This document shows, in pieces, positions 33,891 through 61,078 of a stretch of DNA of 64,000 nt (position 1 is its first letter; every line of letters starts with the position of its first letter). Location: positions 1 to 64,000 of the forward strand of contig NZ_JANYMP010000042.1 in NCBI RefSeq assembly GCF_025061645.1, given 5' to 3'. Made by a program: the position numbers and the translations under genes. This stretch comes from Umezawaea endophytica. GTDB lineage: Bacteria; Actinomycetota; Actinomycetes; Mycobacteriales; Pseudonocardiaceae. The notes below the pieces were generated by a model that made no database searches, was not told the origin of the DNA, and saw only the letters and a program-made list of their open reading frames with translations.

Positions 33891-34130
33891 ACCCACTACG
33901 AAACCGCACGCCGTCTGCCATCTACGACCTACGAAACCGGACCCGCCAACCACTTGCGAAACCGCACCCGCCTACCGCTGACCACCTACGAAACCGGACG
34001 CGCCCACCGTCGACCACTTACGAATCCGTGCCAGCAGCAGCCGACCATCTACAAAACCGGGCCTCGCCGACTGCCGACCACCCACGAAACCGGACGCCGA
34101 CCACCGCCGACCACTTACGAAGCCGGACGC
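33891..34130. repeat. Imperfect tandem repeat, about 33-bp unit, eight copies
   Basis: Cores of the form TACGAAACCGGAC recur at about 33897, 33930, 33954, 33987, 34018, 34049, 34083 and 34116, separated by 24-34 bp. Linkers are GCCGACCAC-like. The array ends 13 bp before palindromic element copy A. It does not have CRISPR-like exact repeats. Confidence 0.75.
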
Positions 34131-34142
34131 CGCCTACGCAGC

Positions 34143-34261
34143 GTGGCCGATTTTACTTGGGGGATTTGCCCCTTAAACTTGCGTCGGACGGCGGCTTCAC
34201 CTCCCCGCCGTTTTGGTCCGACGAAGGGGCAAATCTAGGGGCCCCAAGTCAAATCGGCCAC
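34143..34261. repeat. 119-bp palindromic element, copy A
   Basis: A long imperfect palindrome. The outer stem is 20 bp (34143-34162 with 34242-34261) with one mismatch. The middle stem is 12+8 bp (34163-34174 and 34182-34189 with 34216-34223 and 34224-34235). It has a 7-nt bulge AAACTTG on the left and a 6-nt bulge TAGGGG on the right. An inner hairpin is GGCGG/CCGCC. Copy B at 60871-60989 has the same length and the same bulges. It lies in the spacer between the MFS and carboxypeptidase genes. Its nature (mobile palindrome or structured RNA) is unknown to me. Confidence 0.85.
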
Positions 34262-34365
34262 CCCCACGCTGGATCTCCGGTACGCAACCCAGCCACATCG
34301 AAAGCCCCGATCCTACGACCCCCCACGGTGGTTCCCCCGCCACCCCTCTCGCGCAATTATTTCAA

Positions 34366-34420
34366 TGCTTTTCACGCTTTGTCAAGGCGGGAAAGATGCC
34401 TTGACAAAGCGTGAAAAGCA
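34366..34420. repeat. Perfect 23-bp inverted repeat with 9-nt loop
   Basis: Arms 34366-34388 and 34398-34420 are exact complements, beginning TGCTTTTCACGCTTTG, loop GGGAAAGAT. It is much richer in AT than its surroundings. It contains TTGACA in one arm. It is too far (120 bp) from the carboxypeptidase stop to be its obvious terminator. It may be a dispersed hairpin element or an additional terminator. Confidence 0.85.
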
Positions 34421-34495
34421 CGAAGGGCGCTGGGGATCGGGGCGGCGGGGGAGGTCTGTGCCGGGTCAGTTGCATGCGTCCACTCAAGCGCCGAA

Positions 34496-34539: not shown

Positions 34540-35859
34540 TCAACTCTGATAAGGCGCCGCCGCAGCCTTGGCCGCGACCACGAACGCCCCCTTGTTCTTC
34601 GGCCAGAACGTACTGCTAACACAAGAATAAGCCGGGAAGAACCCCCCACAGGTACCACTCGACGCCCCAACCTCGAACGTCACACTGGCCACACCCAACA
34701 CCCCATAGGTGAAGTCATCAGTGGTACCGCTGGTGTCATACCCAACAGTCTCCTCATTAGTCCCCACCAAGTACCCATTAAAAGCAGCCATCTTCTTCCC
34801 GAATGCCCTCATCTGAGCATCATTGGGCGCCTTCACAGGACTCCACCCCCAAGGAATAATAATATCATTCCCATAACTATGCAAAGTAATCATAGTCCCA
34901 CGCGCAGTAACCGGCGCAGGCGCCGTATCCGATGTCCCCCGCTGATCCGGATAAATAGAAGAGAACAAACTCTCTAAAGCCTGCGTCTCCGGCTCAGACT
35001 TGGCAGCAGTCCCCTGATAAGTCTCCGTACAGGGAGAGTTAGAATCCCCACCCCACTTGAACGAAGAATTCCGGTTCAAATCCACACCGATCGACGTACC
35101 ACTACACCCACGCGAGTTATTGGCGTTCTTGCGCTGCAACCGAGGACTATTCCCACCCGCAGCCACAAGATCCACCCCATCCGGATTGGCCACCGGCACA
35201 ACCCAGACCTCCGTGGTATCCAAAATAGAAGTGGCATCAGCATCAGTGCCATAACCATCCACCAGATAATCTATCCACCGATAAGCCAACTCCCCAGTGG
35301 AAAGCTCCCGAGCATGGATCTGCGCGATGATTGAGAACCGAGGCTTCGTCGAGTTCGGAGTCCGCGCGCAATCCCCCGCCTGCTTCTTCGTCAAGCAGAT
35401 GGCCTTGATGTCATGCCCCGTAGCCAACCCACGGGTCTTGCGCCACGAATCCCCGATGTCGAACTGCGTGGCCAGATCCGGGTGAGCAGCGACGACGGCG
35501 TTCAGATGGGCTTCCTGTTCGGCGGCGGTCTTGTACCCGCCGTAGAACGAAGCCGTGCCGACGTCCTCCTTACCAGGGGCGATCGGCTTGTAGACGGTGT
35601 CGAAGCGGGTCGGGTGGAAGCCCGCGCGGCGGAGGCGTTGGGCCTCTGCGGCGTCGCCGACCACGAGGACGGCGTCGGCGTCGCGTTCGGTGACGTCGTA
35701 GCCGTCCCGGTCCAACTGGTGCATCTGGGCGGCTGACGTGACGGGTACCCGCCAGACGTACGGAACGCTGTCGGGTGCGGCCGAAGCCGTGGTGGGAACG
35801 ACCAGGGCAGCCGCTACCACCACGGCTGTGAGCAGGGTTCTGGGTCGCAAGGGAAGCAC
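34540..35859 (-). CDS. Secreted M14 zinc carboxypeptidase
   Basis: Extracellular metallopeptidase, about 439 aa. Signal peptide ends near TASAA; a propeptide-like region is followed by the M14 domain. Zinc ligands are seen in QIHARELST (HxxE) and in TMITLHSYGN (His); the catalytic Glu is probably in VTFEVG. Four or more cysteines suggest disulfides. The start is uncertain: GTG at 35859 lies directly after GAGAGG, while TTG at 35850 has better spacing. Codon use in the C-terminal two thirds is atypical, with many T- and A-ending codons, unlike neighbouring genes. Confidence 0.88.
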   Translation of the reverse strand: MLPLRPRTLLTAVVVAAALVVPTTASAAPDSVPYVWRVPVTSAAQMHQLDRDGYDVTERDADAVLVVGDAAEAQRLRRAGFHPTRFDTVYKPIAPGKEDVGTASFYGGYKTAAEQEAHLNAVVAAHPDLATQFDIGDSWRKTRGLATGHDIKAICLTKKQAGDCARTPNSTKPRFSIIAQIHARELSTGELAYRWIDYLVDGYGTDADATSILDTTEVWVVPVANPDGVDLVAAGGNSPRLQRKNANNSRGCSGTSIGVDLNRNSSFKWGGDSNSPCTETYQGTAAKSEPETQALESLFSSIYPDQRGTSDTAPAPVTARGTMITLHSYGNDIIIPWGWSPVKAPNDAQMRAFGKKMAAFNGYLVGTNEETVGYDTSGTTDDFTYGVLGVASVTFEVGASSGTCGGFFPAYSCVSSTFWPKNKGAFVVAAKAAAAPYQS

Positions 35860-35992
35860 CTCTCGTGCAGGCCCGACCACGCAGGGGTGTAGTCAGGCGA
35901 ACACGCTCAGTGTGCCCACCCGGACCACCTCCGCCGCCACCCCTCGAACGGCTGATTCAGGGCAGCAGGATCGTGAAACCCCGACAAAGCCG

Positions 35993-48285: not shown

Positions 48286-48329
48286 CGAGCCCGGTGCGGG
48301 ACGACGGTGGTCGTCCCGCACCGGGCTCG
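48286..48329. terminator. Bidirectional hairpin terminator
   Basis: A perfect 20-bp inverted repeat (arms 48286-48305 and 48310-48329, loop GGTG) lies between the convergent NlpC/P60 and serine hydrolase genes. Confidence 0.9.
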
Positions 48330-60799: not shown

Positions 60800-60870
60800 C
60801 CAGCACCCCACCCACTCACCCACCCAAATCCCCAACCCACTACGGGACCGGCAGACACGGCCCTAAAACC

Positions 60871-60989
60871 GTGGCCGATTTTACTTGGGGGATTCGACCC
60901 TTAAACTTGCGCCGGGCGGCAGCTTCACCTTCTGCCCTTTAGTGCCCGGCGAAGGGTCGAATCTAGGGGCCCCAAGTCAAATCGGCCAC
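60871..60989. repeat. 119-bp palindromic element, copy B
   Basis: Same orientation, length and design as copy A (34143-34261). Outer 20-bp stem arms (60871-60890, 60970-60989), the AAACTTG bulge (60903-60909), the CTTCACCT loop (60923-60930) and the TAGGGG bulge (60964-60969) are identical to copy A. The middle stem differs at four pairs and each is compensated. It lies after the MacB-type permease in a convergent intergenic spacer. Confidence 0.85.
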
Positions 60990-60990
60990 A

Positions 60991-61078
60991 CCACGCTGGA
61001 ACGCGACTCACAACCGCCGACCACCCTGGAACCCGCAGCCACCCCCACCCAACCACGCTGGAACCCGCAGCCACCCTC
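60991..61078. repeat. Short tandem repeat, about 31-bp unit, three copies
   Basis: CCACGCTGGAAC / CCACCCTGGAACCCGCAGCC / CCACGCTGGAACCCGCAGCC units start at 60991, 61021 and 61053. A single CCACGCTGGA also follows palindromic copy A, so this flank is shared. Confidence 0.7.

Follow-up and report, generated by a model that had tools for sequence, protein, structure and literature searches.

What kind of element is an interrupted palindrome of 119 bp that occurs twice in one stretch of the Umezawaea endophytica genome, with differences between the copies that include compensated changes in the stems? The stretch analysed, here called the window, comprises 64,000 nucleotides of contig C42 in an assembly of 11.02 Mb and 65 contigs (G000). 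The initial annotation of the window offered two answers for the palindrome, which we call E1: a mobile element maintained by a transposase elsewhere, or a structured non-coding RNA.

Two copies in the window and their fold

Copies A and B (Table 1) were re-measured and, as had been claimed, are of equal length, lie on one strand and align without a gap. Copy A folds into an outer stem containing a T.C mismatch, a middle stem, a left bulge AAACTTG, a right bulge TAGGGG and an inner hairpin. The predicted fold energies are -72.0 kcal/mol for A and -73.1 kcal/mol for B (z -7.8 and -8.5), and none of 200 dinucleotide shuffles folded as stably as A or B.

The two copies differ at 17 positions. These are confined to 34167-34232, as the initial annotation had it, but the last of them is at 34231. 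The outer stem, described there as 20 bp, consists of 19 pairs and one T.C mismatch. Four pairs had been reported as compensated within the middle stem (T-A to C-G, C-G to A-T, T-A to C-G and A-T to G-C). All four changes are real, but only 34167/34231 and 34169/34229 belong to the middle stem; 34184/34221 and 34188/34217 belong to the inner stem. A fifth reported compensation, G-C to A-T in the inner hairpin, was not recovered: in A's register the change of G to A at 34193 faces an unchanged C at 34209. In the same register B's letters also break the innermost hairpin pairs 34195/34207 and 34192/34210, and the innermost hairpin of B forms in a different register from that of A. The pair A/B alone proves little, and the case rests on the other copies in the genome and on its relatives.

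Table 1. Positions in the window of E1, the adjoining repeat units and the second palindrome E2
Feature	Position	Strand	Basis
E1 copy A, interrupted palindrome, 119 bp	34143..34261	+	folding, sequence comparison
E1 copy B, GATTCGACCC sub-type, 119 bp	60871..60989	+	folding, sequence comparison
Left array of copy A, 8 imperfect units with core CCACYTACGAAACCGG, abutting E1	33892..34142	+	
Right unit adjoining copy A, CCACGCTGGATCTCCGG...	34262..34290	+	
Left unit adjoining copy B, CCCACTACGGGACCGG...CCCTAAAACC	60836..60870	+	by eye
Right array of copy B, CCACGCTGGAACC-type units starting at 60991, 61021 and 61053	60990..61072	+	
E2, second, distinct palindromic repeat, right of copy A	34337..34448	+	

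Copies in other genomes and their base pairing

A covariance model built from 22 E1 variants located full-length E1 in at least 83 places in its own genome (150 of 3574 candidates were scored), and two partial places besides, one beside masked sequence and one truncated. A 20-base arm pattern gave 85 forward and 86 reverse matches in this genome, against 1 and 0 for the controls. Searched against 60 relatives, the covariance model matched 8 genomes. Three belong to Umezawaea, each giving at least 60 matches, and the other five to further members of the family; the 24 genomes from other families gave no match. Copy numbers per genome are lower bounds (for E2 below as well), and 'no match' means none at the stated threshold under strict filters. 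A broader model was built from 55 sequences from 7 genomes (G000 21, G001 10, G002 15, G031 3, G035 3, G029 2 and G009 1), leaving out three long G028 copies, copy L101 and most near-duplicates. It detected E1 in 35 of 200 genomes of the family, representing 11 of 46 genera, and in 7 of 298 genomes of an order sample, one of them outside the family; the copy there (L294) folds in the common way. A match in Bryobacterales (L141) consisted of one arm only, with no second arm nearby, and was judged to be a chance match.

Five contigs of the source genome have an end at E1: C9 ends inside it, C19 and C48 six bases in, and C42 and C21 stop short of it by one or a few bases. A possible reason is that the hairpin is an obstacle to sequencing or assembly. 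As draft contigs end at or inside E1, the element may be undercounted in draft genomes.

The initial annotation knew no described family of this shape, and the following comparisons agree with it. Nothing in Rfam overlaps E1, either in the window at the gathering threshold or at 8 loci at E up to 5. Blastn of copy A against PLSDB gave no plasmid match, the exact arm pattern gave none in viral contigs, and no earlier description of the family was found in the open-licence PMC literature.

A common architecture was recognized by eye in folded copies (23 + 20 + 4 from other genomes or genera), with the exception of one G002 copy, L090, whose minimum-energy fold departs from it. The outer stem comprises about 19-20 pairs and is closed by runs of G and C. 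The middle stem carries on its right side a G-rich bulge (4-7 nt in Umezawaea), usually with GGGG, before CCCC; the left bulge is often TAAACT or a variant and is followed by the inner hairpin. Copies range from 112 to 162 bp, and in several genera the palindrome was seen by eye to run about ten more pairs into the flanks. The arms are largely rewritten between genera and the fold persists. What is conserved in E1 is a hairpin with fixed interruptions, not a sequence. A fold that is kept while its letters change suggests recognition of the shape by some component of the cell.

Compensation was tested statistically on the 55 aligned sequences, using 500 shuffles, and the fold exceeded all of them on four of five measures. 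Paired cells made up 94.8%, and 19 of 30 pairs change on both sides. The covariation score was 0.313, compared with 0.119 for shuffled alignments (exceeded in 0 of 500) and 0.050-0.157 for slid partners; the structure was derived from the same 55 sequences, and the slid controls therefore favour it. In the outer helix 99.2% of cells were paired, with 11 of 20 pairs changing on both sides, 9 invariant and none one-sided. The middle-stem rows, which include subfamilies one column out of register, were 86.3% paired. The fifth measure, the number of further pair types, did not rise above the shuffles (157 of 500). The initial annotation's claim of a fold kept by compensation, which a lack of further copies or uncompensated changes in them would have refuted, passes on both points, by the full-length places in the genome and by the covariation tests.

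The type of pair was then counted in 161 copies from the three Umezawaea genomes. These had been chosen by an Umezawaea arm pattern, which misses diverged copies (83 in G000, 47 in G001 and 32 in G002, minus one degenerate G002 copy of 103 nt). Watson-Crick pairs filled 4640 of 4669 stem cells, the remainder being G·T (9), A·C (4) or other combinations (16). These counts are biased upward, since the arm pattern covers pairs 10-20 and the register of the middle stem was set to give as many pairs as possible. Among the nine outer pairs that the search pattern left free, 1431 of 1449 cells were Watson-Crick, the others being G·T (3), A·C (3) or different combinations (12). At the outer-stem mismatch, between TTTAC and GTCAA, 111 of the 161 copies have T·C, 47 have G-C and 3 have C·C; T·C is also present in G028, G029, G031 and G035, and absent in G009 and several other genera. 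In minimum spanning trees double pair changes (51) outnumbered single ones (22), and of 47 changes from one Watson-Crick pair to another, 20 were transversions, which cannot pass through G·T. Since G·U ought to be tolerated in an RNA fold, the rarity of G·T points to pairing of DNA or to copying of one arm from the other; the youth of most copies could be a partial alternative explanation for it.

The preponderance of double changes, and the transversions among them, would also be expected if the arms were kept complementary by DNA template switching (quasi-palindrome correction) and ordinary recombination homogenized the copies, selection for a function playing little or no part. Such a mechanism within palindromes has been described (PMC8794818), and as it can yield compensated arms, compensation without selection at each step is possible. 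Template switching should also erase asymmetric bulges, however, yet the bulges recur in copies folded from many genera, and it explains neither the high copy number nor the spread over 11 genera. We consider it an improbable account of E1 as a whole. Rare G·T intermediates together with recurring bulges make the element a natural test of compensation in DNA.

Placement, flanking arrays and turnover

Copy A is situated between genes for an MFS transporter and an M14 carboxypeptidase, and copy B between convergent genes for an FtsX-type permease and a PAC2-family protein. Among 99 copies flanked by 1 kb or more on either side, none lies within a called gene. Placement counts are approximate, since the crude custom gene caller missed the M14 gene (34540-35880): among 93 copies with both neighbours called, 35 were in convergent gaps, 34 in sense tandem, 21 in antisense tandem and 3 in divergent gaps, and the left-hand gene was directed at E1 in 71 of 96 cases. 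The controls were 49 gaps without E1, each of 150 bp or more, taken from the window and 27 Umezawaea loci and called likewise; 10 were convergent, 16 tandem and 23 divergent. E1 thus avoids called genes and divergent (promoter) gaps. In a search for gene neighbours that recur across genera, tblastn comparison of ORFs from the G000 flanks with loci outside the genus matched 7 locus pairs.

Copies lying mostly 3′ of genes, with the left-hand gene usually pointing at them, could be expected of a structured RNA (a terminator, 3′-end stabilizer or small RNA) co-transcribed with the upstream gene or transcribed close to it, and such an RNA would also account for a very stable fold with covariation and for the bias in tandem orientation. 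That bias is weak, however (34 sense to 21 antisense); G.T pairs, at 9 of 4669 cells, are no commoner than mismatches; there is no Rfam match over E1 and no T-run after the stems of A and B; and a regulatory RNA would not usually show identical copies at many places or be rewritten from species to species. We therefore regard an RNA as unlikely. Three observations favour DNA over RNA: G·T is rare, the copies are placed as described, and they evolve in concert. Of the two possibilities raised at the outset, the evidence leans towards the DNA element; no transposase that would maintain it was found.

Arrays of imperfect units of about 24-33 bp flank E1, and their types differ between the two sides and between species. 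In the left array of copy A the units are spaced by 31-33 bp, with one interval of 25, and the last begins 32 bp before E1. Unit order is fixed on the E1 strand: in 63 copies examined, CCACYTACGAAACCGG-type units occurred on the left only, and CCACGCTGGAACC-type units mostly on the right, with 57 matches in the first 100 bp and scattered singles elsewhere. U. tangerina (G001) and G002 were seen by eye to have their own recurrent flank types. A 21-bp left motif, with up to 3 mismatches allowed, had 25 matches in the genome, 18 of them beside E1, 5 within 100 bp of a contig end and 2 elsewhere, of which the one inspected (L269) looks unrelated. The ordered units are essentially restricted to the surroundings of E1. 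On the E1 strand the share of C + A is 0.72 within 25 bp and falls to 0.60 by 150-175 bp on the left and more slowly on the right; at 800-1000 bp it is 0.54-0.57.

The flanks adjoining E1 are related between loci, and a target-site duplication is indistinguishable from a shared flank motif. The genome search with the 21-bp motif revealed no empty target. With neither a definable target-site duplication nor an empty target, insertion itself was not observed.

Comparison of loci bears on the history of the copies. One 118-bp variant occurs as thirteen identical copies; the 40 bp next to them are 70% alike on the left and 68% on the right, and the flanks farther out 50-56%. G000 and G001 share at least seven intergenic regions in which each has an E1 of species-specific type, the seven being those found among the copies examined and giving no rate. 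Four further pairs of shared loci were found between G001 and G002. One flank alone aligned at L028/L137 of G000 and G001 and at L136/L233 of G001 and G002. Some sites are old, being common to species with flanks about 75-95% identical, and movement of E1 may be rare. The gap orthologous to that of copy A is without E1 in both G001 and G002, and contains E2 in G001. Unrelated short tandem repeats, differing between the two genomes, occupy this gap (G002:C1:8550300-8551100, L160; G001:C16:143500-146600, L161), and the intergenic arrays of Umezawaea seem to turn over quickly. The gap that lacks E1, together with the species-specific types, indicates gain or loss of E1 as well as differences in its type at shared loci. 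The differences in type may have arisen by gene conversion of resident copies or by E1 inserting repeatedly in the same gaps.

E2 is a second family of palindromic repeats. Its inner hairpin, TTGTCAAGGC/GCCTTGACAA (TTGTCAAGRC), is nearly constant, and the next 13-15 pairs vary between copies and are Watson-Crick in 18 of 18 copies at the loci examined. Other loci include L002, L003, L028, L181, L144 and L159, with more besides. At least 63 copies are present in each of the three Umezawaea genomes, and at least 21 in G011, where E1 had no match. At 12 loci of the source genome E2 lies 70-97 bp to the right of E1.

Known systems and the search for a mobilizer

High-copy palindromic intergenic repeats are a known kind of sequence; the bulged architecture, rewritten arms, ordered arrays and missing known mobilizer of E1 appear to be new. 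ERIC (IRU) elements are enterobacterial intergenic repeat units of 127 bp with imperfect palindromes. Compared by description, E1 is like them in length, imperfect palindrome, intergenic site and repetition; we know of no cross-genus rewriting of arms in ERIC like that of E1.

PATEs and the MITEs of IS200/IS605 and other IS are short non-autonomous palindromic elements. For E1 no autonomous partner was found and no target duplication could be defined. An autonomous element was sought at odd copies and contig ends, where one truncated E1 and contigs stopping at or in E1 were seen. The one clearly unpaired arm examined, among the matches listed, belonged to an E1 without its left part (G000:C9:141880-141982, L173), truncated beside an IS4/5-type transposase gene. 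Inverted pairs of E1 lying 70-151 bp apart were noted at L026, L033, L035, L166, L167, L145 and L259; the left ends face each other in G000, and the right ends in G001 and G002.

If E1 were a PATE or REPIN driven, now or recently, by a Y1 (IS200/IS605 or RAYT) transposase, its hairpin shape and inverted pairs would be explained, as would a left-hand TTAC, present in 111 of 161 copies, and a right-hand TCAA, which we take to be the cleavage tetranucleotides of IS608. The Y1/RAYT domain PF01797 is indeed present in carriers G009 and G029. It is absent, however, from 6 of 8 carriers (G000, G001, G002, G028, G031 and G035), among them all three Umezawaea genomes with their at least 60 matches each, which weakens this candidate. 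Nor are the REP tags GTAG and CGTC constant at the ends of E1: in 24-bp end windows of the 161 copies, CGTC was present in 35, GTAG in 3, CTAC in 27 and GACG in 1 on the left, and CTAC in 2 and GACG in 6 on the right. A Y1 driver is thus very unlikely. A retron-type element with reverse transcriptase as constant companion was also rejected, as PF00078 is missing from 3 of 8 carriers (G001, G031 and G035); it is present in G000, G002, G009, G028 and G029.

Sites of the attC type work as bulged single-strand DNA hairpins that are conserved in shape and variable in sequence, and E1 would share these properties if it were an attC-like recombination site of an integron or a related tyrosine recombinase. 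The core sites RYYYAAC and GTTRRRY were found in 0 of 161 copies, however, and E1 is dispersed over many contigs. Membership of attC fails on the missing core sites, and we attach hardly any weight to a relationship of this kind. E1 is also like OTH-22-1, an attC-like structured DNA motif (PMC8632094), in being a bulged hairpin.

The closest resemblance is to REPINs, in which REP doublets form hairpins, two REP sequences being tied to a RAYT transposase (PMC3116915). E1 is likewise an inverted, hairpin-forming intergenic repeat in many copies, and shares with REPINs as described there a size of about 100 bp, conserved ends, a compensated interior and populations evolving within genomes (PMC3116915). 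E1 differs in its one continuous stem, asymmetric bulges, rewriting of arms across genera and ordered flanking unit arrays, and in the lack of a Y1 protein in most carriers tested. It is also like the GTAG and CGTC super-families of REPs, which are palindromic, of high copy number and often 3′ of genes, and of which the CGTC REPs also seem to be without a dedicated transposase (PMC3733652). The stems given for these REPs are of 5-13 bp with a terminal GTAG or CGTC tag, G.T pairing is frequent in GTAG REPs, and the phyla named for the two super-families in that account do not include Actinobacteria (PMC3733652); E1, in contrast, is about 119 bp long, has no constant tag and contains nearly no G.T.

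E1 combines high copy number, a fold kept across genera, near-strict Watson-Crick compensation and species-specific types at shared loci. On balance, we think it probable, by a modest degree, that E1 is a REPIN-like non-autonomous DNA hairpin repeat, amplified or homogenized in trans by a putative enzyme that reads its shape; action at the level of DNA, mobility and the enzyme are what we infer. The hairpin would extrude, or form on a strand exposed during replication. A structure-specific enzyme, of the host or selfish, would recognize the bulges and the GGGG or the GGGG-CCCC junction and cut or copy the hairpin, so that new E1 sequences would arise at new sites and E1 at old sites would be overwritten. 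E1 would then work as a REPIN does, as a hairpin-shaped replicative DNA unit mobilized in trans, by an enzyme other than RAYT in most carriers tested. Any service to the host, for example at the 3′ ends of genes, would be secondary.

A more specific proposal, which we put forward tentatively and hold to be about as doubtful as the RNA, is that E1 is part of a DNA homing system. A non-Y1 enzyme would read the folded single-stranded or cruciform hairpin and convert copies to a master in place, each event leaving or extending the arrays of units of about 24-33 bp. If so, the genome would hold more than 80 shape-addressed sites that are continually rewritten.

REPINs are the best-known hairpin DNA populations of bacteria and are tied to a known enzyme; E1 is larger and more elaborate. 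As the REPIN enzyme is absent from 6 of 8 carriers, either a new structure-reading enzyme exists or replication and repair alone suffice. Some genera contain genomes both with and without matches, among them g22 (G182 and G195 against G023), g17 (G080 and G131 against G018) and g3 (G177 against G004), which makes the missing gene searchable. Elsewhere in the window, positions 48286-48329 contain a perfect 20-bp inverted repeat with a 4-nt loop.
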